Shown: piece by piece, positions 1 through 43,024 of the stretch
How positions within the stretch are numbered: position 1 is the stretch's first letter
Layout: every line of letters begins with the position of its first letter
IMG/VR virus record: IMGVR_UViG_3300031578_000083
Coordinates: 1 to 46,238 of that record
Length of the DNA: 46,238 nucleotides
Source: a virus
Direction: 5' to 3' (one strand)
The notes under the pieces: model-generated
Database searches by the model: none
Told to the model about the DNA's origin: nothing
What the model saw: the letters and a program-made list of their open reading frames with translations, nothing else
Made by a program: the position numbers and the translations under genes

Positions 1-3000
1 GTGCGTCGCCTGCGGCAGGCCTGCGGCTACCGCGAGCCCGGCCCGGTCCGGATCCATCTCATTCAGGTGAAGTTGACCGACGACGGGCTCGATCAGCGCG
101 GCGAGGCCTCCGGTGCCAGCCGAGGGCTCGATCGCGACGTCGGACGATTGTGGGGCGGCCAGGCGCGCCACGAGGTAGGCGATAGTCGGAGGGGTGGAGA
201 ACTGCTGTAGGTCTATCTGCTCCTGGTCTTTGACCGTCTGGGTGGCCAGGCGCGAAAGGACTCCCCTCAGCTCCTCCTCGGTGGCGTTAAAGTCCTGGGT
301 CAGGAGGCGTTGACCGTTTTCTCGCAACCAGCGGTTGATGGCGGCTTCCTGCGCTTCGTAGATGTCGCGCTTCGAGAAGGCACCTTCGGCCCGGGTGCCG
401 GCGTAGATCTCGCGGGCGAGGGTTTCCAGGCGGAGTCGGATGTCCTCACCGTTGCTGATGGCTTCATGGATTCGATCAACGAGCAGGAGCTGCGGGGATT
501 GAGCCTGCGTCTCGCCCGACGGTTGATCTGTGGCCGGTGGGGCAACGTCTGTGCTGGCTGGCTCCCCGGTATCCGCCCGTAGATCCTGGGCGTCGAAGGG
601 AACGTACTCGATGGTGGTCGTGGCCACGGTTGATCCGCCGACTTCGCCTTGGGGATGAGCCCGGACGCGGTATGCGGTGCCGCTGACTGAGGTGATGAAA
701 CCATGCAGCTTCCGTCCGTCCGGGGCGGTCCACTTGATGCTGTTTGCCTGCCCGAAGGTGGGCTGAAGAGTCGGCGCTGCCCCCCACTTCGCGTCTGCCG
801 CCTTCTTGAGAGCCGCTCCGTCCTCGGTAAGCATGCCCCAGCGGATGTTTGGGTAGCCGTATTTGTCGACGAGCGCCCCGAGCATCTGCATGGCGATGCC
901 CTGCCTTCGGAGGGTCGGTTTTACCGTGATGTTCTCGATCCGAGCCACACCCTGTTCGGCAGTGGTCTCGGCGTACTCGATAGCCCCCACCGCGTGTTTC
1001 GCTTTGTCCCTGGCGAAAAGATGGAATTTGTTCTCCCCGTTGCCAGCGGAACCAACGAAGTCTACGTGCTCGTCGTGGATGCTGTAGGGGCCGGCCTCTT
1101 CGGAGGAAGGGGCTGAGGAGGCGGTGGTCGGTTCGGGCTTGGGATAGAGCTGCCGCAGGGCGGCGCGCTGGGCGTTCTGAAGCAGGATAGGGCTCTCGTT
1201 GAGGAGTTGGCGGTCGCCAGAAATAGTGACCTCGACGCCGTAGTGCGCCTGCTCCGGATCGACAGCGGTGAGAACGGGGGCGGCCGGGTGTGGAACTATA
1301 TTGACGCTGACTTCGCCACGGACCGCAGTGCCGCGGCGCTGAAGATCACTCAGGCTTTTCTCTATCTCCTCGGTCGGGGCGCCGCTCATTCGCTCCAGTT
1401 CCTGTAAGGTTGAGGTCCAAGCATCGGTTTGAGCTATTGCCCACAGGTGGGGCTTCGACTCTGTCGGCTTCTCGATACGCCCCTCGGTAACCAAGCCGTT
1501 GAGGGCGGCCTCTTCAGCCGCTGGATTGAAGCTGCGCCAGCCGATCTTGAAGCTGATCCGGTTGACCGCCTTCCTCTTTTCGGCAGTGTCTTCAATAACC
1601 CAAAGCTTCTCGGCTGGGTGCCATTTGGCCCCCAGCGCCTTGAGTTGGTGCCGGTGCCGGTAGGTATTTCCGGTCAAACCGAGGTAGGTCGGGCCTGTTT
1701 CAGCGGTGCTCGGTTCGGGAGCCTCCGCAGGCTCGGAAACTGGCTCAGATTCGGGCCGTGGGAGCCTAACAGGCGACTCAAAAGGCAGTGGGCTCGATTT
1801 TACAGAGGCGCGCTCAGGGCCGATTTGCGGGGCGGGAGCGGGCATTTCCACAAATCCGGCCATTGGCGGGGCTGGGGTCACCAGATCCCTCTCCTCGACC
1901 GGCGCCGCCGCGACCTTCCCGCCCGGGCCGACGACGTGGTTGCGGATGAGCCGGCTGTAGATTTTCTGGGCATCGGGTCTCGCCAGACCAAATTCCTTTT
2001 CGAGCGTTGCCCGGAAGATCCGGCCGCGAGAGTGGGCGAGTTGGACAGCCCGATCATACAGGGCTCCCACATCAGCCTTCTTGGGCTCGATCTTTCGCAT
2101 CCGGGCGAGCAGCTCGTCGCCCTCGGGGCGCGTTAGAAGCTGGGTGGATTCTTGGCCGGAAACCTCCCGGACCAGGGCGCGGAAGTCGGCTTCGGGTAAG
2201 GCGAGGTCGCTCTTGAGGGCAAAGATAGCGGCGAGCTTCGTGTTGGTGAGCGGCTGAGTGGCGGGAGCGGCCGGCGCTGCCTCCGGAGGGGTGGTCGGCG
2301 CGGCCGTCTTCGCGACGGGCTGGGGTCCGCGCATCCGGTCGGCTTCAGTCTCTATCCGGTCGCTGGCCTCATCGTAGAGTCTCCGGGCGTGAGGTCTCAC
2401 CCATTCGCCCAGCTCTGCCGCCATCGCGTCCAGGAAGCGCTCCATGCGGTGGTAGCCGGCAGTTATCTTCCATGACGCGACGAGGCGCAGATCGTCCCAT
2501 ATCGCGCCCAGCTCCTCATCGGAAATGGACTGCGGCGTGAGTTCCCCGCGCGTGTCGCTGGCGAGCCGCTTGAGGCGGTCCTTGATGCGGGCGGCAGCCG
2601 CCTGGCCTTCTGTCTGCCGAATGGCGCGCAACTCGGTGGCCACCTCAGCATCTGTTTTCTGTGCGGCGGGAGCAGGGCCGGCTGTAGGCTCTGCGATCGG
2701 CGGCGCTGAGATGCCCTCCGCGCCGGCGAACAGCGGAGGAGGAACCTCTACTTGAGGGGTGCGTCCGGGGCGCCGGGCCGGTTTACGGGCTGGCGTTGCG
2801 ACGGGCCGAACAGCTTCTCCAGACGGGATTCCTTCGCTTGGCGGGTGTCCCTGTTCTGGAGCAGTTGGCGGAGCTGCCTCACCACTGATTCTCTCGGCGG
2901 CGCGAGGGGCGCGCGGTTGTTCTGGGGCATTGGCTTTTGCCTCCTTCTCTACTACGTAGCCGCTGGCGGCGGAGAGCAGCTCCGCCTTGGTCGGGGGCTG

Positions 3001-4395
3001 ATTCGTCCCGAAAAGTCCTTCTTGCTTCGGGTCTCCAAGCTCCTCGACGGCGTTGGAGTAGGCGATGAGGATGTCACCGATCCGGCGCGGAGCGCGGCTA
3101 TGCTCGGCGAAGACTTGGAGGAGGGTTCTGGCCTCGGGAGAAATGTCCCGGCCCAGAAGGCCCTGCTGGGCGAGGTAGTCGCCGATGGTGGTCCCGGTTT
3201 GTTTCAGCCAGGCCACTTTTCTGGCTGCTTCGGCCACGTCCGGGGCGAGGTCCAGTTTGTGGAGGCTGCCGGCCTTGATGCCCTGCTTGATCTGGGAGAA
3301 GGCGGGGGCGGCTCGAAGCATCCCGTTCGTGATGGACCGGATATTCGAGTCGGTGGACTCGGTGAGTGTCTCGATAGCTGTCGGATCCCCGTAGGCGTGA
3401 GCGAAAATGGCGTTCTGAATCCGCTGGGCTCCAGCCTTTGAGAGCGTTCCTTCAGCCGTCATCAGAGACGACTGCTCGGTTCGACCGGCGACGTGCTGAA
3501 CAAAGCTGCGCGGGAAGGCGCGATTAGAAGGCGCGGTTATTTCTGCCTCCGGATCGAAGTCCTGGAGCAACCCGCCGATCCTGCCGGCGTCAACGGTCGC
3601 CACTTCGGCTGGGCTCATCCTCTGCTGCGGATCGACGTTTGCTTCGCGCGCAAATTGCACGCGGTTGACCGGGCTGCGCCGAACACGAACGATGGCAAAG
3701 TCACCCAGCCGGTCGAGCACTTCCGGCGCGATGCCGAGCTGCTCCGAGTCCGCCTTCGCGGCGTCCTTGTATCGCTGGTAGACCTCGGGCCGATGCTGGC
3801 GCGCCCATCGCAAGGCATTCAGGCGACCGGTGCCGGCTTCGCTCACCAGGTCCGGGCCCACAACGGGAGCGCCGAAATTGACGAGGGGATCCGCGCCGAG
3901 GCGTCCGTACTCGAGGCGGCCGCCGATGTCGGCATATTGCACCTGGGATGCGGCGCGATCGCGCTGTCTGGGCTGGACCGCTTTCGGGTAGGCGGGGTTC
4001 TCGTTGCCGGCCAAGTCATGAGAGGCCAGCGGAGCGTCGAGAGGTACCGCGGCAAACTGATAGTCGATTTGAGTGCCCGGGACGGTTGCGGCGCGTCCTT
4101 TCGCTCCAAGCTGGAGGGGTGAGAGGCTGGCCGGTTTCCCCTCGGGCAGATCGACGGGCTCAGCTATGTCGAGGGTCGGGGCTTCCGACTCGGCGGGACG
4201 GTACTTCCCCGACGAGGCAATAGTCCCTTCGGCAATCAGCTTCTGAATGAGGTCTCGCGCCTGCGCGCTCCGCAGGTTGAGGGCGTTGCGAATGCCAGCC
4301 GCTGAAATCTTGCCCTCGCGCTTTGCCAGATCCCGGGCCTGCTGATAGACCTCCTCGGGGAGTGGACGCTCAACCCACGGTGCCTTCTCCTCTTT
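1..4395 (-). CDS. Large polyvalent phage protein (partial, runs off left edge)
   Basis: I read this frame codon by codon: there is no stop in 1465 codons from 4395 to the window edge. Domains in order, numbering from the codon after the TAG: FtsK-gamma-like winged helix (about 14-65); DdrB-like ParB-superfamily domain (about 180-270, with AFAREANV-like text near 248-252); Pro/Ala-rich linkers; a second winged helix (about 777-825); a short module like the 'KALGAKW...LWVI' domain of phage polyvalent proteins (about 917-933); GNAT acetyltransferase (about 1115-1185, RRQGIA acetyl-CoA loop near 1163); and at the edge an adenine-methylase-like start (FSTPP near 1400, EPSAGTGG near 1423). This is the composition of phage large polyvalent proteins, often ejected with DNA or antirestriction. 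There is no ATG before residue about 260, so the start is unresolved: either continuation through the TAG or a damaged GTG at 4376-4378. Confidence 0.85.
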
Positions 4396-4398
4396 CTA
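4376..4398 (-). promoter_or_regulatory. In-frame TAG followed by strong Shine-Dalgarno and out-of-frame GTG
   Basis: On the minus strand the TAG ending the 421-aa ORF (4396-4398) is followed at once by AAAGAGGAGAAGG, a strong ribosome-binding site. Eight bases after GAGGAG lies a GTG (4376-4378). As written, that GTG is one base out of frame and reads GTG GGT TGA. If the run GGG at 4374-4376 were GG, the GTG would open the 1465-codon frame directly. This is either the lost start of a separate gene (mutation or sequencing error) or a site where translation continues through TAG. Confidence 0.6.
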
Positions 4399-5661
4399 GT
4401 CGGCGGTATCATCTGATACCGCTTCCGGGGCGGGAGTGCCTTCGTTCATCCAGGGGTAGGCGTCGGACGGGGCTTCCGGCCGCGCCGCCTGGTCGCGTGT
4501 CGCTGGCCCGGCGCCGGTGCTCTCGGCGGGAGCTGTGGCTTGCGTCTCGCGGTACCAGTTTCTCAGTGCCTGCGGATCTATTCCGCCAGCGCGCAGGCGG
4601 GCGCGGCCCATGCGGCTGCCGGCGAGCTTCATCACAACGTCGAGGAAGGCTCCGACTCCGCCGCCGCCAGCCAGGTCAGTTTTCCACTGCTGTCCAACGT
4701 CGCCGGCGTCGAGTCCGCCATAGCTCGCCTGAAGCACGTCCTGGCCGAGACCGCTGAAGGTCTCCTGTCCACCCTCCGCCGCCGCTTGGACGGCGGCCGA
4801 GCCGAGGTAATCTCGCCAGCGCGGATAGAGCTGCTCCGCGAGTTCCCTTACCCCGAGGGTCTTGCTGGCTACCCGAGCGCCCTTCCAGAGATCGAGCAAC
4901 CGCTCGAAGGGAAGGGCTTCGGACAGGCCGAGCGGCACGGCGGAGGTCAAGACGGTGGCCTGTTCTCGCGGGGTTAGGGGGACTCCGCTTCGATCGGCGC
5001 GTGAGAGCGCGTCCTCGATGTGCATGGCCACGCCGGCGAGAGGCATCCCTCCGGGCAGAACGCTCGCGGCGAGGAAAGGCACCGTGGAGGTCAGTACGTT
5101 GAGAGCTTGAGCGGTGCCCGTGACGGGCGGTGGAACCACGTCCTGGACGGCGACATCGTGGAGGAGTTGCCGTTGCTGCTTGGCGGTTGTGGTGGAGGAG
5201 GGGGTTGTCTCAACGGGCTCGGGCTGGGTTTCCCCTACTGCGCGACGGGCAGCGGCCTGCCGGGCCTCGTCCGCGCCGCTGAGTTGCTCGATGAAATCGG
5301 CCAGCGGTACCATGCGGTCCGCTTTGCCGGCAAGGTCGAGCGGTTGGCGTTCGGCTGTTGAAGGTGTGCGGGCCTCATTCTGTTTCCGGATCAGTTCGTC
5401 GATTTGCGCGGTTCCTCCACTCATGCGCGAGATGGGATCGACCATCTGGAGTGCCCCTCTGAGGGCGCCGCCAGCGAAGCCGCGGCCGAGGACGTCGGCG
5501 AGAATCGACGGTCTATCAACTTCGGTGGGAGTGATAGTGGGCGCTCTGCCGGCGCTGGGCAGCCCGGTTTTCTTTGTACCGGCAATCGGCTTGAATCCAA
5601 GCTTGGAAAACAGGTCTGAATCCTCAGAGATGAAACCGAGCTGTGCCCAGAGATCCGGCAT
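4396..5661 (-). CDS. Putative ejection or polyvalent-protein N-terminal segment, 421 aa
   Basis: ATG at 5659-5661 has a clear AGGAGG site 8 bases upstream. The N-terminus is acidic and hydrophilic. The centre (about 180-240) is rich in small hydrophobic residues and could associate with membrane. Around 300 there is an 'AAEGGQETFSGLGQD' segment that resembles the helical 'E-x-x-QE' stretches common in phage polyvalent and ejection proteins. The C-terminus is a Pro/Ala/Thr linker that stops at TAG, and the same frame continues open for 1465 codons. The linker-like ending suggests this may be the N-terminal part of the giant downstream protein. No enzymatic motif is recognised. Gene position follows the P22-type DNA-transfer genes. 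Confidence 0.75.
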   Translation of the reverse strand: MPDLWAQLGFISEDSDLFSKLGFKPIAGTKKTGLPSAGRAPTITPTEVDRPSILADVLGRGFAGGALRGALQMVDPISRMSGGTAQIDELIRKQNEARTPSTAERQPLDLAGKADRMVPLADFIEQLSGADEARQAAARRAVGETQPEPVETTPSSTTTAKQQRQLLHDVAVQDVVPPPVTGTAQALNVLTSTVPFLAASVLPGGMPLAGVAMHIEDALSRADRSGVPLTPREQATVLTSAVPLGLSEALPFERLLDLWKGARVASKTLGVRELAEQLYPRWRDYLGSAAVQAAAEGGQETFSGLGQDVLQASYGGLDAGDVGQQWKTDLAGGGGVGAFLDVVMKLAGSRMGRARLRAGGIDPQALRNWYRETQATAPAESTGAGPATRDQAARPEAPSDAYPWMNEGTPAPEAVSDDTAD

Positions 5662-5664
5662 GGT

Positions 5665-7050
5665 TTACTGGACCTCCTGTGCCCCAGCAGCTTTGGCTTG
5701 GGCGAGATTCGCGCGCGGGATGGTGCCAACTTGTCCGTCTGGCCGTTTGATCATGACGGTATCGGCGGAGGCCTGCGGTGTGGCGTTGCCCGCGGCTCGG
5801 TAGACGGCGTCCTTACGTCGCTGGATGACCGCGCGCCGCGTTTGGAGCGTCTCGATGCGGGCCTCGTTCTCGGCGATCTTGGCTTCGAGCGTCCGGCGCC
5901 GGTCATCGAGGTTCCGGAGGGCGGTTTTGTCCTGCTCTTCCGCGTCTCTACTGTTCTGCGCGTCGATCTGCGTGTGGATCGTGTTGAGTTCGATTCCCGC
6001 GGCCTCATTCTGCGCGTGGAGCGTGTTCTCCTCGTCGAAGAGCTGGTCGTGTTCGGCTTGCCACTTCTGAAATTGCTGCTGCTTTGTCTCGGCGGATCTA
6101 TCCACGGCCGGCGCGCGTCCGCCCTGTTGGTAGGCGTTCGCCCGTTTGAGCGCGTCCTCATACCTGGCGCGCTCTTCGGGGGGGCGGTTGGGATCTCCTG
6201 TCGCCAGCGCGAAATCAAGGACGGTGTTGGGAACCGCCTGCTGCTCCGCCGTGCCCCGCTGGCTCGGCGTCATGCCGGCCTGCTGGAGCCTGGCGGCGAC
6301 GTCCTCGGTAATTGCATCTCCCACAAACGGGCGGAGGCGTCCTTGGGTAATCTCATGGAGCGTTGTGGCCCCTTCCTCCCCGCTGAGCAGAGGGGCTAGG
6401 CGGCCGGCGATGTCGAGGGACTGGGTGAGTTGTTTGTACTCATCCTCTATTTCCTTCTGCTTCTGAGCAATTGTGTCGGCGAGCCCTTGCGCCTGGGCGG
6501 TCTGCTGCCTCAGCCAGAGTGCGGCGTTGGTGTCGTAGACAGGCCGCTCGTCGGCGTCGTCTTGGCTCATGAGCCCCTGTTTGACAGCGGTATCGAGGAA
6601 GGCGGTCCAAGAGGTCTGGTCTTTGACCGTCTGGCCGAGGGCTGCGGCATTGGCGAGGGCCTGGGCATGTTTGTCGTACTCGAGCTTCTTGAGATTCAGG
6701 TCATCGGTTTTCCTCTTTGTCTCCGCCGCCGCCGCCGCCTGATCCGCCGTTGCCCAGTCAGAGACCTGGTCGGCAGCGGCAAGGCGATCGACGTGGAGCA
6801 TATTGTCGAGCGTGGACTTCCGGTCTACCGTGCCGTCGTCGGAAACGACAAAGGACCGGCGTAGAGCTTCCTGCTTGGCTTGATCGCGGGCGGCGGCCTC
6901 AGCATCGCGGCGGGCCTGATCAATTTGGAGCTGGCGGGCGTCGCCGAGCCGCGCCATGTCGCGGAGCCTGAGCACCTGTTCGCGCCCGGCCCCGATCTGG
7001 GGTGCGGCGGGCGGATTGAGCATCAAGGGGATTCGTGCGTCGATGGGCAT
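5665..7050 (-). CDS. Coiled-coil structural/ejection protein, 461 aa
   Basis: The product is dominated by charged Ala/Arg/Gln/Glu-rich helices (about 25-130 and 320-420), which predict long coiled coils. No catalytic motif is visible. It lies between the gp7-like DNA-transfer protein and the 421-aa ORF, which is the position of the second P22-type ejection protein (gp20), so an internal virion protein that is injected with DNA is the best inference. Ends in TAA 3 bases before the next ATG. Function otherwise unknown. Confidence 0.8.
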   Translation of the reverse strand: MPIDARIPLMLNPPAAPQIGAGREQVLRLRDMARLGDARQLQIDQARRDAEAAARDQAKQEALRRSFVVSDDGTVDRKSTLDNMLHVDRLAAADQVSDWATADQAAAAAETKRKTDDLNLKKLEYDKHAQALANAAALGQTVKDQTSWTAFLDTAVKQGLMSQDDADERPVYDTNAALWLRQQTAQAQGLADTIAQKQKEIEDEYKQLTQSLDIAGRLAPLLSGEEGATTLHEITQGRLRPFVGDAITEDVAARLQQAGMTPSQRGTAEQQAVPNTVLDFALATGDPNRPPEERARYEDALKRANAYQQGGRAPAVDRSAETKQQQFQKWQAEHDQLFDEENTLHAQNEAAGIELNTIHTQIDAQNSRDAEEQDKTALRNLDDRRRTLEAKIAENEARIETLQTRRAVIQRRKDAVYRAAGNATPQASADTVMIKRPDGQVGTIPRANLAQAKAAGAQEVQ

Positions 7051-7054
7051 GGCG

Positions 7055-8038
7055 TCACCTGCTGTAGGAGGGAATCACGTACGCGTATCCGGACTGCTGC
7101 TTGTTGGCTGGAGCCCCTACGCCGAGCTTGAGCATATCGGCCAATTTGAAGGTCCCGGAATCGAACCCGCCGGCGAGCAACTTGTCGCCAGCGCTTCCAA
7201 TTCCCGAGAGCATGCTATTCCAGGCGTTGGCTCGGCCCATATAGTCCGCTGCCTTCACATCGCCCAGATCGGTGTAGTAGTTGCCCACCTGGTTGGCTAG
7301 GTTGAGGGTGTTGCCCGCCACGTCGCGAGCCGCGCCGAGTTCGGCGCCGGACGCCAGCTCCTCGCCGCGCATTCCGACGTCGCCGGCATACGCGGCGGAA
7401 TTGACCAGATTGCCCGAGGCCCGATTGCCGTAATTCTCTCCAGCCGCTATCTGCTGGCCGGTGGCCGTCTGCCCCATCCCAGCCAGAGAGCCGAGCACGT
7501 TGCCCCGTTGCTGGCGGTCAGCCAGGAACCGCTCGAAGGCTGCTTGGTACTCGGTTGAGGCCATGCCCTGGCCGTAGCGGGTGAGGGCCTTGAGAGTGCC
7601 CCCGGAGTTGAGGCCGCCACGCGCCGCGGCGGAGGCTTCGAGAGCCTTCTGTCCCTCCTGAAGCCGAAACTGGTAGCTCGGATCGTCCTGGGAGAACTCG
7701 AACTTCTCTTTCCCCAGGTTCACCAGGTCAGCGAGGCTGGACACACCCGCTTCCGCGTAAGGTGACGTCGCGTCGACGCCCTTCTTGTAGATGGACTCGA
7801 GTAGCGCGTTGGCGTCGGTAGTGGCTCCCTCGACGCCAGCGGCAGCCGTGCCGGCCGCGCCGCGGACGTTGCCGCCATAGGTGCCGGCGGCGTCCAGCAT
7901 CTGCTGGTTGACCTCCGGGACGGTCGTTTCCAAGCGGTCGATAGCGCGATTGACACTGTCGGTTTGGGCGGCTGCCGCCTTCTTGGTGGCATTGCGGCCC
8001 TGAATGCCGCCGATGATCGAAGTCACAAGACTGGGCAT
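7055..8038 (-). CDS. gp7-like DNA transfer (ejection) protein, 327 aa
   Basis: The text 'DPSYQFRLQEGQKAL' followed by 'SAAARGGLNSGGTLKAL' and 'YGQGMASTEY' (about 118-162) is the hallmark of a widespread podovirus protein usually annotated as DNA transfer or ejection protein, P22 gp7-like. It is carried inside the capsid and helps conduct DNA across the cell envelope. The N-terminus has a short Gly-rich hydrophobic start, and the rest is Gly/Ala-rich helix with GNYGNRA-type spacers. ATG at 8036-8038 has AGAGGAG upstream. It overlaps the end of the gp14-like gene by 16 bases. Length is somewhat longer than P22 gp7. Confidence 0.85.
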   Translation of the reverse strand: MPSLVTSIIGGIQGRNATKKAAAAQTDSVNRAIDRLETTVPEVNQQMLDAAGTYGGNVRGAAGTAAAGVEGATTDANALLESIYKKGVDATSPYAEAGVSSLADLVNLGKEKFEFSQDDPSYQFRLQEGQKALEASAAARGGLNSGGTLKALTRYGQGMASTEYQAAFERFLADRQQRGNVLGSLAGMGQTATGQQIAAGENYGNRASGNLVNSAAYAGDVGMRGEELASGAELGAARDVAGNTLNLANQVGNYYTDLGDVKAADYMGRANAWNSMLSGIGSAGDKLLAGGFDSGTFKLADMLKLGVGAPANKQQSGYAYVIPSYSR

Positions 8039-8505
8039 GATGTCTCCTCTGGTCGCTTGGCACTAATCCCGAATAGAAGCTGGTCGTGCATCCGGCCGTC
8101 CTTCAGGAAGCTGCGCTCATTTCTTCCGTAGCTACTCATACCCGCCGTAATCGCCAGAGCGACGGCCAGGCGGTTGTAGGCTGGGATCGACGCCACGACG
8201 CGCCGGCACTCGCCCTGCTCAAAGACCCACTCGATTGCTCCGCGAAGGGCTTGGTGAGAACGTCCCCAGGCGACGGGGAGCAGGGCACAATGGACCTCCC
8301 AACAGATGGCGTTCTGAGGCAGGAAGCTCAGAATCCCGAGAGTGGCGTCGGGATCGAGCGCGAGCACGTACCAGATCCGGTCGTCGCCGTTCGGTCGAAA
8401 CTGCTCGGGAGCTGGCGCCGCATCGTCCGTGGCCCAGCGGTACTGAGTCGGATGCGTGAGGATCCGGCGTACCTGATCCAGGTCGTGGGTGCGCTCGAAG
8501 TGCAT
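8023..8505 (-). CDS. GNAT-fold / P22 gp14-like (DUF2824) protein, 160 aa
   Basis: This is a compact alpha/beta protein with a 'WYVLALDPDATLGILSF' beta segment, an 'EVHCALLP..WG' segment and a C-terminal 'NRLAVALAITAGM' helix, the layout of a GNAT-type acyltransferase. In P22-like phages a protein of this size and fold (gp14, DUF2824) lies immediately before the gp7 ejection gene, as here. The role in P22 is head/DNA-ejection assembly rather than proven acetylation. The acetyl-CoA loop is not clearly present, so enzymatic activity is doubtful. Confidence 0.7.
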   Translation of the reverse strand: MHFERTHDLDQVRRILTHPTQYRWATDDAAPAPEQFRPNGDDRIWYVLALDPDATLGILSFLPQNAICWEVHCALLPVAWGRSHQALRGAIEWVFEQGECRRVVASIPAYNRLAVALAITAGMSSYGRNERSFLKDGRMHDQLLFGISAKRPEETSCPVL

Positions 8506-14372: not shown

Positions 14373-15781
14373 CAGGGTGCCCCCGGTTTTGCCTTTAGCA
14401 GGGCGGCCACCCAGGCCTGTCGCATGGCGGCGGTGGACGTCACGCGGTAGACCCGATCACGAGAGGATCCCAGGCGGCGCCAGAGAATCCGGGCGGTGTA
14501 GTCTCCGATCGCGCCGGCCGTCGCCGTTTTGGCGGTGCCAAAGGTCCGCCCGCCATTGTTGGACACCTCCAGGGAAAATTGGGGGCTGGCCACCTCGCCG
14601 ACTTCGACATCGAGCTGTAGGCGGTTGTGAAAAACGCGGGCTCCCTCGGCGTGGAGGTGGGGCGCCGTCCTCATCCTGGTGATCGGCGTGCCGTCATCGG
14701 TGTAGATTTCGACGCTCTGCTGGTAGATGGTTCCCGTCGTGTGGTCTCCCACGAAATGCTTGCCGAAGGTGAACGCATGGCAACGGCCGCGGTGTCGATC
14801 GAGGCCTGAGCCATAGGCTCGCTCGTGCCACATGTCCGTGCTCAGGTCATACGCCCAGGTGGCGTTTTCGGTGGGGAAGGTCCAGACGATGAAGGTGTGG
14901 CCCTGCTCGGTGTAGATGTAGCCGATGGTGTCGTTTACCGTGGAGTACTTGCTCCAGGCGGCCTCTACGGCGTGGTTCGAGATGCGGACAGGCGAGAAGC
15001 CCGACACTCGGTAGGCCACTATCCGGCCCCGGGCATCGCCAGACAGCCAGGCCGGGCCGCCTCCGGGAACCTTCACCGGTGAGTAACTCGACACGATTCC
15101 CATGTCGATGAAACCACTGGGGTCCGTCCGAAAGACCTGGTCAATGTCGCCCTCGTTGCGGTAGATCTCTATTGTTTGGTCCCCGAACGACCACAGCTCG
15201 CGATGGTCCGCGAGGAGGGCGTAGATGTTGTCCGGATAGGCTTCCTGCGATTGGAAGTCGGGCTCGTCCCAGGACGTGAAATCGTTCAGCGCCGAGTAGA
15301 AGAACTGTTTTGAGTAGGGCGCATGGACAATCCCGTAGCCATCCAGAAAACAGCCGGTGAGCGCCTCAACGTCTCCGCCCTCGCTGAACTCGCACTGCTC
15401 CGGGCCCGTACCGCTGTCCACGTAGGCCAGGCCGGCCGAGATGATCAGAATCTGTGTGCCTACTCCATTCGGGAAGATCATCGCCGGGGTGTGGCCCGCG
15501 TCGTCGCCCACGGGCCCGCGAAGGTCATAGCTCGCATCGGAGTACACCTCGTAGAGCGCGTCGCCCCCGACCGCGAAGAGTCGCTCCTCGCCGGCCCAGA
15601 GACAGCGGACGGGAGCTGTGGGAAGGGTGGCAAAGGCGACCAGCCCGGGCGTGCCGAACAACGCCTTGACGGCTTTCCCGGCCCCGGACTGGTCCACCTC
15701 TGGGTAGAGGTTGACCGTGCGCTGCGCGTCCAGCCGCAGCGAGCGCGCCTGGTAGGTTGGGCCGACGAATCCGAAGTCCAT
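14372..15781 (-). CDS. Packaged-DNA stabilisation protein, P22 gp10-like, 469 aa
   Basis: The N-terminus 'FVGPTYQARSLRLDAQRTVNLYPEV' region and 'FGTPGLVAFATL' match the P22 gp10 / phage stabilisation family, which forms the tail needle-supporting plug that seals packaged DNA. Length is close to P22 gp10 (about 470). A beta-propeller-like repeat of 'YGIVHAPYSKQFFYSALNDFTSW' and 'ELWSFGDQTIEIYRNEG' is also typical. Start codon overlaps the TAA of the upstream gp4-like gene (TAATG). Confidence 0.88.
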   Translation of the reverse strand: MDFGFVGPTYQARSLRLDAQRTVNLYPEVDQSGAGKAVKALFGTPGLVAFATLPTAPVRCLWAGEERLFAVGGDALYEVYSDASYDLRGPVGDDAGHTPAMIFPNGVGTQILIISAGLAYVDSGTGPEQCEFSEGGDVEALTGCFLDGYGIVHAPYSKQFFYSALNDFTSWDEPDFQSQEAYPDNIYALLADHRELWSFGDQTIEIYRNEGDIDQVFRTDPSGFIDMGIVSSYSPVKVPGGGPAWLSGDARGRIVAYRVSGFSPVRISNHAVEAAWSKYSTVNDTIGYIYTEQGHTFIVWTFPTENATWAYDLSTDMWHERAYGSGLDRHRGRCHAFTFGKHFVGDHTTGTIYQQSVEIYTDDGTPITRMRTAPHLHAEGARVFHNRLQLDVEVGEVASPQFSLEVSNNGGRTFGTAKTATAGAIGDYTARILWRRLGSSRDRVYRVTSTAAMRQAWVAALLKAKPGAP

Positions 15782-16509
15782 TACTCACCCGTCCGATAAT
15801 CCCAGCCGGATCTGCCCCCGAAAATCGGCTCACATCGCAGGGGGCGCTTGACCCTGTTGATGCGCTTGATGTCACCGAGAGAAGTGCGGGCAATCGTCTG
15901 AACTATCGCGAGCTGGTCGCGGGAGATGGCGAGGGCCTTTGGGAAGAGGCCCTTGAGACGGAGCGCCAGGTTGTACTTCACAGCCTCTTCGTAGCCTGGA
16001 GGTTCTGGGACAAACTCAAGAATCTCGTTCAGCGCGTTGATCCTGGCCAACCCCTGCCGGGTGAACAGCTCGATAGTCCTGGTTTCTGTTGGCACCGGCC
16101 AGACGACGATCTGGCCCAACGGGAAGAACGGCGCATAGTAGAGCTTCGACGGGATGGTGCTTTCGAGCGTTGGAAAGGCGACGTCGGCCCAGTTATGGAC
16201 TGTAATCACTTCAAGGTGAGTCCGGTACGGAGGAGTATCTGACGTGAGGAGGTTGGCGCGGTTGATGGCGAGGGGGCGGGCGGCGTCGAAGTCTCCGCCC
16301 TCCCCTATGGTGTAGGTTTGCTGGTCAGCGACCAGGTTGTACTCGTCGCTGCGGACAACCGGGATGGTGAGGCCCTGAGTAGCCCAGCCACTCAGCATGG
16401 AATTAAGGGCTCTGAGTGAGACTTCGGAGTCTGAAGTGTTGGCCCCACGTCCGGGGCCGAGCTTCCCGGCCAGGGTGAGGGCGTCTTCGATCAGTTCTTG
16501 CGCTGTCAT
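15781..16509 (-). CDS. Tail accessory/adaptor protein, P22 gp4-like, 242 aa
   Basis: Start 'MTAQELIEDALTLAGKLGPG' with 'ALNSMLSGWATQGL' and the later 'PPGYEEAVKYNLALRLKGLF' are typical of P22 gp4-type tail accessory factors that bind the portal and connect gp10. The protein is longer than P22 gp4 (166 aa) because of a beta insertion (about 60-160). It is coupled by ATGA to a paralogue upstream. Confidence 0.8.
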   Translation of the reverse strand: MTAQELIEDALTLAGKLGPGRGANTSDSEVSLRALNSMLSGWATQGLTIPVVRSDEYNLVADQQTYTIGEGGDFDAARPLAINRANLLTSDTPPYRTHLEVITVHNWADVAFPTLESTIPSKLYYAPFFPLGQIVVWPVPTETRTIELFTRQGLARINALNEILEFVPEPPGYEEAVKYNLALRLKGLFPKALAISRDQLAIVQTIARTSLGDIKRINRVKRPLRCEPIFGGRSGWDYRTGE

Positions 16510-17486
16510 TGTCGCGGTGCCTCCGGAGCGGGCGCTGGTTGCGCCGATCCTGAGACCGGCGCCGGCAGCCCGAGCACTTGAGCGTTGAGCGCCGCGATCG
16601 CGTTCCGCGACTGTTGGGCTGGACCGGCCACGAGCGCCGGGTCAGCCCCGAAGCTCGACGCCCAATCGAGGGCCGTGTTGAACACGAGCGCGCGCTCGTA
16701 GCCCGGAGGCAGATCAACGGTAGCCGAGAGGCTCGCGAAGCCTTCGAGGGCGTTGAGGGTGAGCAGTTCAAGAGTGCCTGCAGCCGGGGAGGGAGCCAGA
16801 CGGACTGTGCCGGTAGGCCAGCCGCCATCGTAGAACAGCACGCGGGCGAAGCTGCCGCCCTCGCCTCGTTTGAGAAATGCTGCCCACTTCTCCGCTGTGA
16901 CGATCTCCACCTCTTTGGCGATTGTGGAGCCCGCGAGGATAGCGGCGCCGGTGATCTCCGCTGGTCTCTCGGTGTCAAAATCCCCGTCGATTCCGATGGT
17001 GTAGCTGGCTGCCCCTTCGAGAGTAAATTCCTCGCGGTTGGCCATCAGCCCCTTGCCTATTGGGCGAAGGCTGAGCAACTCGAGAGTCCCGGTGGCGACG
17101 AGCGGCGCGATGTGCACCTTGGCGAGGGGATAGCCGTCTTCGAGATAGAGGATTTCGCCGAAGTCAGCGTCTCCGGCTTTGTCCATGTACGCCGCCCATG
17201 CCGCGGCGTCAGCGATGTTCAGGGGCATGCTTACGGTCGTAGTGACCACCACGGAAGCAGCCCGGATCTTGAGTGGCCTGGTGGGTAGCGAGTAGGAAGC
17301 AGCCCCGGTCAGAGTCACCTCCGATCGCGTGATCTGCGGGATTGGCAGAACTTCGGCGTTCCAGCTGGCGATGAGGCGGTTGAGGACGCCAAGGCCGTCA
17401 GCAGACTCTGAGGCTGTCGGAGTCTCCTCCGGGTCCATCTCCTGGAGCGCAATCAGCGCCCCGTTGATGACGTCCTGGGCAGTCAT
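16506..17486 (-). CDS. Second gp4-like adaptor with duplicated middle domain, 326 aa
   Basis: Paralogue of the next gene: 'MTAQDVINGALIALQEMDP', 'LGVLNRLIASWNAEVLPIP' and 'PPGYERALVFNTALDWASSFGA' line up with the 242-aa product. The middle beta domain occurs twice, about 58-148 ('TGAASYSLPTRPLK..GTLELLSLRPIG') and about 153-250 ('EGAASYTIGIDGDF..GTLELLTLNALE'). The C-terminus is a Pro/Ala tail. ATG overlaps the preceding TGA. Probable portal-tail connector. Confidence 0.78.
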   Translation of the reverse strand: MTAQDVINGALIALQEMDPEETPTASESADGLGVLNRLIASWNAEVLPIPQITRSEVTLTGAASYSLPTRPLKIRAASVVVTTTVSMPLNIADAAAWAAYMDKAGDADFGEILYLEDGYPLAKVHIAPLVATGTLELLSLRPIGKGLMANREEFTLEGAASYTIGIDGDFDTERPAEITGAAILAGSTIAKEVEIVTAEKWAAFLKRGEGGSFARVLFYDGGWPTGTVRLAPSPAAGTLELLTLNALEGFASLSATVDLPPGYERALVFNTALDWASSFGADPALVAGPAQQSRNAIAALNAQVLGLPAPVSGSAQPAPAPEAPRQ

Positions 17487-19331: not shown

Positions 19332-19354
19332 GGGGCTGGCAGTGAACCAGCCCC
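19332..19354 (-). terminator. Perfect 8-bp hairpin just after the coat gene
   Basis: GGGGCTGG, a 7-base loop, CCAGCCCC, 9 bases after the coat-protein TAG on the minus strand. No T run follows, so it is more likely an RNA stability element or attenuator than a full terminator. Confidence 0.4.
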
Positions 19355-41176: not shown

Positions 41177-41229
41177 GCCTTCCAGCCGGCCTCCAGCCTC
41201 AATTCCGCGCGGCAAATCGCACGGGAGGG

Positions 41230-41245
41230 GTGCGGGTTTCCGCAC
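41230..41245. repeat. 16-bp inverted repeat, copy 2
   Basis: gtgcgggtttccgcac, part of a perfect 9-bp stem (41227-41248) with a four-base loop. Could be operator or RNA hairpin. Confidence 0.5.
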
Positions 41246-41301
41246 CCCTATCATTATTGAAAAGAAAAGAAGAAAGAATAGCTAGCTGGCTGGCTGAAGG
41301 G

Positions 41302-41647: not shown

Positions 41648-43024
41648 GTGAGTTCCCTCCCCGCCGTCTCTCCAAACGAACCTCGCCCCGGCTGGCTGGA
41701 CTTCAACCCCAACGGGTTTCTCCGCCTCACTCACGCCGTGAGTTTGCCCATGTTCGGCGCCTGCACCGACGCCGAACTCGCCGTTTTAGTTTTCCTGATG
41801 GTCTGCACAGAAGGACTCGGTAAGAAGGAAAATTACGTGGCGCTGGACTTCATGGAGACGATCTTCAGAGACCGGAAAAAGAGGCGCACTCTACAAGATG
41901 GCTTGGCCGGCCTGCGAAACAGGGGCTTTATTGTAGCGACGGGTGAGCCTGGAGAGATCACATGCTTCCGCGTCGTCTGGGAAGCCATCATTAACTCGGC
42001 CCCGATAGCTGAACTGGAGACCGAGAAGAAACAGGGGGCAAAAGCAGAACCTGAATCGAAAACCAGAACAGTCCCCGCCTTGGTAGAGATCCGGACCAAA
42101 GACGGCAAGGTGCTGCCCCGCCACCACTCAGGCCCCTTGACTCTGGCCGCGGAGCCAGGGAGAGCCACTGTGAGCCGTTGCGGTGCCTGTAAGTTAGTCG
42201 CAATAAACGAAATGGTCCCAGCTTGCGACCTTGACTGGGAGGGGGGGTGCGAAAATCCGCACCCCCGCAAAGAAAAGGCGAAAGTGCAGCCGATCCGTGC
42301 AGAAAAGCCACCTTCTTCCGTTTCTCCGGGGGTGCCCCAGCCGGCAGTGAGCGCCCCCCTTCTTTCCCCTCCCGCCAAGTCCAAGACACCGAAACCAAAA
42401 GCAGACCGCCACCAGTTGGCGGACGAAAAAGCCAAAGCCCTGCACAAATACCTCTGTAGCAACTGGAAGGACCGAGCGTTCCAGAAAAAGGCCCCGACTG
42501 CAAGGCAGGTGAACATAATAGCGGAAGCCCTAGGGGAAGCCCCTGTCAGCAAGCTGCACGAGGTGATGATGCGGCGCAGTATCTATCTGAGGGGGGAGGC
42601 TGAACACTACGGCGTAGTCCGAAAGATGGCAGTAGACGCCCTGGTGGAGTGGGAGGCTGAGGTCGGCGTGCTGTGCGGGTGCGAAAAGCAGACCCGGCTC
42701 TTACCGGGAGATGTCTGCTCGAACTGCGGCCCCCATCCGGAGGCCCCTCCCAGTCAAGAGAGGCCCCCCCAGGAAACATGGGACCTGGTGAAGCGGCAAC
42801 TGGCCGACCGCCTAGAGCACCTCCCCTACGAGAACTTTTTCCTACCTACCTGGCTCGTTAAGGCTGATGGGCGGAAGCTACAAGTGGCCGTTCCCGGATC
42901 CCTGACCCGAGATCACATCTCTGAGGTCTATCCACTCACGGTGATCAAGGCGGTCGAAGACGCCCTTGGTCCCGGTTTCGAAGTCGAGTGGCTGCTAGAG
43001 GAGGGGGTTGAATTGGCGGGCTAA
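41648..43024 (+). CDS. Replication protein with C-terminal DnaA domain I-like module, 458 aa
   Basis: GTG start at 41648, no strong SD. N-terminal winged-helix text (about 25-115: 'TDAELAVLVFLMVCTEGLGKKENYVALDFMETIF...LQDGLAGLRNRGFI') as in phage replication initiators. Cys-rich patches: 'CGACKLV' with 'ACDLDWEGGC', and 'CGCEKQTRLLPGDVCSNC'. C-terminal 82 residues (377-458: 'WDLVKRQLADRLEHLPYENFFLPTWLV...KLQVAVPGSLTRDHISEVY') match the DnaA N-terminal domain that binds DnaB helicase. This suggests a helicase-loading role. One copy of the 16-bp inverted repeat lies inside the gene at 42247. Confidence 0.75.
   Translation: MSSLPAVSPNEPRPGWLDFNPNGFLRLTHAVSLPMFGACTDAELAVLVFLMVCTEGLGKKENYVALDFMETIFRDRKKRRTLQDGLAGLRNRGFIVATGEPGEITCFRVVWEAIINSAPIAELETEKKQGAKAEPESKTRTVPALVEIRTKDGKVLPRHHSGPLTLAAEPGRATVSRCGACKLVAINEMVPACDLDWEGGCENPHPRKEKAKVQPIRAEKPPSSVSPGVPQPAVSAPLLSPPAKSKTPKPKADRHQLADEKAKALHKYLCSNWKDRAFQKKAPTARQVNIIAEALGEAPVSKLHEVMMRRSIYLRGEAEHYGVVRKMAVDALVEWEAEVGVLCGCEKQTRLLPGDVCSNCGPHPEAPPSQERPPQETWDLVKRQLADRLEHLPYENFFLPTWLVKADGRKLQVAVPGSLTRDHISEVYPLTVIKAVEDALGPGFEVEWLLEEGVELAG
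42247..42262. repeat. 16-bp inverted repeat, copy 4, inside the replication gene
   Basis: gtgcgaaaatccgcac within the flanking g/c tract, perfect 6-bp arms extended by G:C pairs. In a coding region (residues about 201-205). An origin-like site inside an initiator gene is known in other phages. Confidence 0.45.

Follow-up and report, generated by a model that had tools for sequence, protein, structure and literature searches.

A single stop codon in a giant late gene

Does the one TAG that divides a giant reading frame in this viral DNA separate two genes, is it read through by the ribosome, or does it interrupt a single gene? The window (the whole stretch of DNA analysed, which is an entire IMG/VR virus record of 46,238 bp) carries a minus-strand late operon with genes for terminase, portal, scaffold, major head protein, head closure, a head protein and DNA ejection, and the phage seems to be podovirus-like. 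The interrupted gene is the final gene in view of this operon (Table 1). As the original prediction held, one frame runs on the minus strand from position 5661 to position 1, and its 1887 codons contain exactly one stop, at 4398-4396; the 1465 codons that follow are free of stops up to the contig edge.

The same prediction placed no ATG before about residue 260 of the downstream frame, and this is exact: the first in-frame starts after the TAG are TTG at codon 128, GTG at codon 152 and ATG at codon 260, the near-cognate CTG and ATT appearing earliest at codons 23 and 30, respectively. A protein initiated at TTG 128, GTG 152 or ATG 260 would have no winged helix, and its ParB domain (residues 107-227) would be truncated or missing altogether. 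At the base composition of the window, an open frame of 1465 codons has a chance of about 8e-19. Homology (PF18763, E 2.7e-14; phrog_5143, E 7e-69) is stronger proof than length, and by this homology the downstream frame is a real gene and not a chance opening. Since these 1465 codons are intact, decay of the gene is not advanced.

Table 1. Positions in the window of the interrupted gene, its domains, its junction and the genes next to it
Feature	Position	Strand	Basis or remark
DNA methyltransferase domain start, cut by the contig edge	37..246	-	phrog_9133, E 4.9e-4; phrog_6263, E 2.9e-3
GNAT acetyltransferase domain	862..1044	-	PF00583, E 3.3e-4; phrog_3810
Region 56% identical to L167 (winged helix, ParB domain and helical region)	2938..4356	-	Sequence comparison
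DdrB-like ParB domain (PF18763)	3715..4077	-	E 2.7e-14; BFVD structure matches named DdrB-like
Winged helix (FtsK gamma-like), downstream-frame residues 14 to about 59-64	4219..4356	-	Weak Pfam match, E 0.33
Downstream open frame, 1465 codons, rest of the polyvalent protein	1..4395	-	Stop-free, runs off the contig edge
SD-like AGAGGAG, 8 nt, GTG (4378-4376), out of the downstream frame	4376..4391	-	GTG GGT TGA
In-frame TAG, codon 422	4396..4398	-	Within predicted disordered stretch 374-430
Perfect 8-bp inverted repeat, 4-nt loop, ending 4 nt before the TAG	4403..4422	-	Hairpin scan
N-terminal ORF, 421 aa, ATG with strong SD (AGGAGGT), TAG end	4396..5661	-	ORF analysis
461-aa gene directly upstream, 3-nt gap to the interrupted gene	5665..7050	-	No family
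DNA-ejection protein gene, same operon, upstream of the interrupted gene	7055..8038	-	phrog_598, E 1.2e-31

The record has several other features of its own. A GNAT-like gene (PF13302; window 8023-8505) lies within the head and ejection operon and overlaps the ejection gene, and an acetyltransferase is annotated at a comparable position in podovirus ctype202. The consecutive genes 15781-16509 and 16506-17486 both match PHROG 12985 and are likely tandem duplicates. A perfect 8-bp hairpin at 19332-19354, directly 3' of the major head protein stop, may be an attenuator or processing site. On the early side, two long and similar palindromes (GGGGTGCG and CGCACCCC), at 41226-41249 and 42243-42266 with about 1 kb between them, are possibly operators or origin elements.

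Domain architecture of the downstream frame

The ParB match is well above the curated cut-off of its family (53.8 bits against 27.6), and the downstream frame as a whole matches PHROG 5143, a profile of length 2204. The winged helix is formed by confident helices in the structure model and is conserved in L167, the nearest relative. Winged helix, ParB domain, GNAT domain and the beginning of the methyltransferase share one frame, which as sequenced lacks a start before codon 128 and is cut by the edge. We modelled residues 1-910, with the TAG read as a residue, from an alignment of 10. In this model the winged helix (436-481) and the ParB region are predicted with confidence and the N-terminal part poorly, with a disordered stretch at 374-430. 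Its best matches in the viral structure library (BFVD) are DdrB-like proteins; a Foldseek search of the PDB with the whole model gave nothing usable. The gene follows those for DNA ejection, head closure, head and portal on the same strand, and thus stands among late virion genes. Judged by its domain content, the gene is a new, divergent member of the DdrB-ParB polyvalent proteins, a known type.

Relatives carry one open reading frame

The next question is whether homologues have one protein or two. Alignments of the ParB region were used for scans, and with annotated phage records included, 226 loci had a forward match. The nearest relative found is L167 (IMGVR_UViG_3300036766_001071), which is 56% identical over 473 residues (residues 14-486). 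From 6309 its frame runs on for 2710 codons to the end of the contig, with no stop at the place of the TAG, and its winged helix begins about 482 codons after the start, compared with 421+1+14 in the window phage. The L167 phage shares almost nothing else with the window phage, as expected of mosaic genes; therefore, L167 shows the architecture of the gene and not that of a sister phage.

The wider comparison gives the same picture. In 64 of the 65 loci with at least 35% identity and a visible upstream stop, the ParB domain is preceded by 345 or more residues of the same ORF; in the remaining one, L102, the ParB domain is interrupted by an assembly gap. Annotated phages with this domain have it in single ORFs of 956-2480 aa, and podoviruses show the same layout. 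Shorter versions, with the ParB domain near the N-terminus, are found among more distant relatives, mostly with a start codon of their own. Because L167 and 64 of the 65 loci carry the N-terminal region in one ORF, the ancestral state, so far as can be read from these sequences, is one cistron. The relatives thus bear out the earlier proposal of one very large polyvalent protein containing a single in-frame TAG. Single-protein scans of IMG/VR with both halves, the neighbouring gene and the major head protein found no close relatives.

Several loci were considered and set aside. L054 and L065, each with an in-frame TAG ahead of the ParB ORF, are not split genes: the later ORF brings both a start and an N-terminal region of its own, and the one ahead of the TAG looks like the preceding gene. 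The internal TAA of L022 lies where the ParB region ends, and nothing points to a continuation. L078 is broken by frameshifts and does not serve as an intact comparison; at 5600-7200 of this locus, the N-terminal region of a DdrB-ParB gene is spread across three frames, as in a frameshifted or decayed copy. A screen of all long ORFs for a start-less in-frame continuation picked up, for the most part, shadow frames of GC-rich genes, and its results were set aside. Separately, a DdrB-ParB phage gene is found on L108, a contig of 3.4 kb that was placed, possibly by mis-binning, in a Candidatus Aenigmatarchaeota MAG.

The N-terminal ORF

The 421-aa ORF is helical, with a Gly/Ala-rich segment at about residues 190-375 followed by a Pro/Ala/Glu-rich linker. 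It has no BLAST-level relatives among phages, plasmids or IMG/VR. An N-terminal profile grown from locus L008 without the 421-aa ORF (122 members, no decoys) scores the ORF at 17.9 bits (E 5e-5 for 1000 sequences), while none of 500 shuffles exceeds 5.7. With further iterations its domain E-value weakens to 0.003-0.03 and its whole-sequence scores come within the shuffle range; iterated profiles from some seeds pulled in reversed decoys and were left out. The ORF aligns collinearly with the N-terminal region of the family, with a common motif around A-x-E-G-x-x-E. This match, weak and not robust, is suggestive of the 421-aa ORF being the usual N-terminal region of DdrB-ParB proteins.

The junction around the TAG

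Both the GGG at 4376-4374 and the SD-like AGAGGAG before the GTG, on which the original prediction built its second explanation, are present. In the version weighed here, an ancestral fusion would have split into two adjacent genes, one for a 421-aa protein that stops at the TAG and one for a winged-helix/ParB protein with a ribosome site of its own and the GTG as its start; somewhere from this GTG to the winged helix, the record would contain either a base-count error or a genuine frameshift. Several observations are in keeping with it. Only 2.3% of late coding codons (5.2% if the SD is defined more loosely) are followed by an SD and a correctly spaced start, as the TAG is here by AGAGGAG, 8 nt and GTG; 10 of 22 late-gene starts in this phage have an SD of the same strictness; GTG starts have been proposed elsewhere in the window phage; and the winged helix starts soon after this one. 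There is also the perfect hairpin at the junction. Hairpins of at least 8 bp are found at 7 distinct places in the 46 kb, a total similar to that of simulated sequence, and the falling of one at this junction is an unusual coincidence noted post hoc; the other fetched loci show no junction hairpin. Both the SD with its GTG and the hairpin look like a gene boundary.

However, the GTG frame as sequenced reads GTG GGT TGA and ends after two codons, so that the downstream ORF is not open from the GTG, and an indel is required besides the gene split. Moreover, no relative at 35% identity or above is split there, 64 of 65 being single and the other gapped. The stretch between the TAG and the GTG scores as coding in the zero frame: in the 21 nt after the TAG, this frame gives +2.3 bits, versus -8.3 and -0.4 in the other frames. 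The proposal of an inserted base and a GTG start is thus weakened by the homologues and the zero-frame coding score and kept alive by the SD with its GTG and the hairpin; we consider two genes unlikely. No near-identical junction DNA with either base count was found. An RF2-like +1 shift at GGT TGA was rejected on geometry alone, as the shift would have to act at the second codon with poor P-site re-pairing.

The other explanation first offered for this locus was read-through of the TAG. Translation would pass a leaky or programmed stop, or one suppressed by a host tRNA, yielding a minority of full-length protein while most of the product is the 421-aa N-terminal protein. Both halves are otherwise intact, the one-ORF relatives imply that the full-length protein matters, and a partially read stop would be least harmful in a linker. 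Against this, the position is free of a stop in L167 and in the other intact relatives. Downstream of the TAG there is no stable pseudoknot-free structure: the segment 4398-4280 is less stable than its shuffles (z +2.4). The record has no tRNA gene, and TAG terminates other late genes. A literature search, which was not exhaustive, found no precedent for read-through in DdrB-type genes. Read-through of this TAG thus found no positive evidence, and we regard it as quite unlikely. One form of it, in which the downstream DNA-acting and modifying domains are made only by occasional read-through of the linker TAG so that the virion holds a fixed excess of the N-terminal protein over the full-length one, is very unlikely; if true, it would set the stoichiometry of an ejected multidomain protein in an unusual way.

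L102, a MAG contig of the same family, has a TAA (L102:3153-3155), upstream of its assembly gap, in a linker ahead of a winged helix. This stop interrupts a 936-codon frame, which is open past the TAA to a gap of Ns, with no ATG nearby. It is a possible second case of read-through.

TAG as a stop codon elsewhere in the record

If TAG were reassigned throughout the phage (genetic code 15), one in-frame TAG inside a long gene would be accounted for. Yet TAG ends other late genes (9175, 11177, 17713, 19363, 20648, 26259, 26659 and 27408), as had been noticed for the first five, and the profile matches of the major head protein and of another head protein finish at their TAG stops. A search of the record for a suppressor tRNA, or any tRNA gene, found none, and this is the single such in-frame TAG among the late genes examined. 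The earlier view that general recoding is unlikely is supported by the head genes and the lack of a suppressor tRNA, and we give code 15 almost no chance.

A probable one-base interruption of one gene

We think it rather probable that a one-base change has interrupted a one-cistron gene, either as a consensus error or as a recent nonsense allele. A substitution of this kind, erroneous or real, is the simplest reading and was missing from the list of the original prediction. The weights given here to the competing readings are a matter of judgement and not of computation. One-base change is favoured because it needs one event and a coincidence of a few percent, while two genes need a split unseen in near relatives plus an indel. 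The TAG lies within the predicted disordered linker and the 21 nt after it score as coding, which are points on its side; since about 30% of the whole frame has linker-like composition, the position of the stop is only mild evidence of anything. On the other side stand the SD and GTG after the TAG, a coincidence of 2.3% (5% with a looser SD) to which the hairpin adds another, the N-terminal profile match, which is not robust, and the fact that L167 is no sister phage.

According to this one-base reading, the two ORFs would be one cistron of at least 1887 codons for a polyvalent protein of the DdrB-ParB type. Its domains would follow in the order helical Gly/Ala-rich N-terminal region (as in relatives), winged helix, ParB, GNAT and methyltransferase. 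The gene comes after that of the ejection protein, and its product is presumably carried in the virion and injected along with the DNA. A single base change would have turned a sense codon into TAG in the linker that joins the N-terminal region to the winged helix, either in the metagenomic consensus or, recently, in the phage itself. If the TAG is real, only the 421-aa part would be made, plus at most leaky read-through, and the downstream domains would be missing. The ddrB gene of phage P1 is dispensable in E. coli in the laboratory (PMC10695390), and the survival of a real null allele would therefore be unsurprising. The stop is probably an ordinary one. As it most likely stands, this case calls for caution: where a giant mosaic gene of an uncultivated phage shows a single stop, reads and relatives need checking before recoding is claimed.

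Comparison with known systems

Polyvalent proteins with DdrB-ParB domains have been described among late phage genes (Iyer et al. 2017, PMC5512222). The gene reported here resembles them in having winged helix, DdrB-ParB, GNAT and methyltransferase domains in one frame among late virion genes. It differs in the in-frame TAG after residue 421 and in a C-terminus that lies outside the record. The podoviruses ctype202 and ctCJ8213 (MW202473 and MW202738) encode single-ORF DdrB-ParB proteins of 2480 and 2476 aa, respectively. As in the window phage, the gene stands directly after a large gene of the ejection or virion block, and the N-terminal region is long and Gly/Ala-rich, the ParB domain of the two proteins lying about 740 residues in; unlike here, their genes are uninterrupted, and the identity is 29-33% in the ParB region only. 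L167 shares the winged helix and ParB region and a similar N-terminal length, and is likewise cut by a contig end, but has one open frame without the TAG in a phage that is otherwise almost wholly unrelated. Finally, DdrB of phage P1 has a ParB domain of the same family (about 32% identity over 344 residues) in an ORF of another architecture, and this protein is reported to undergo processing and to be packaged in the head (PMC5512222).
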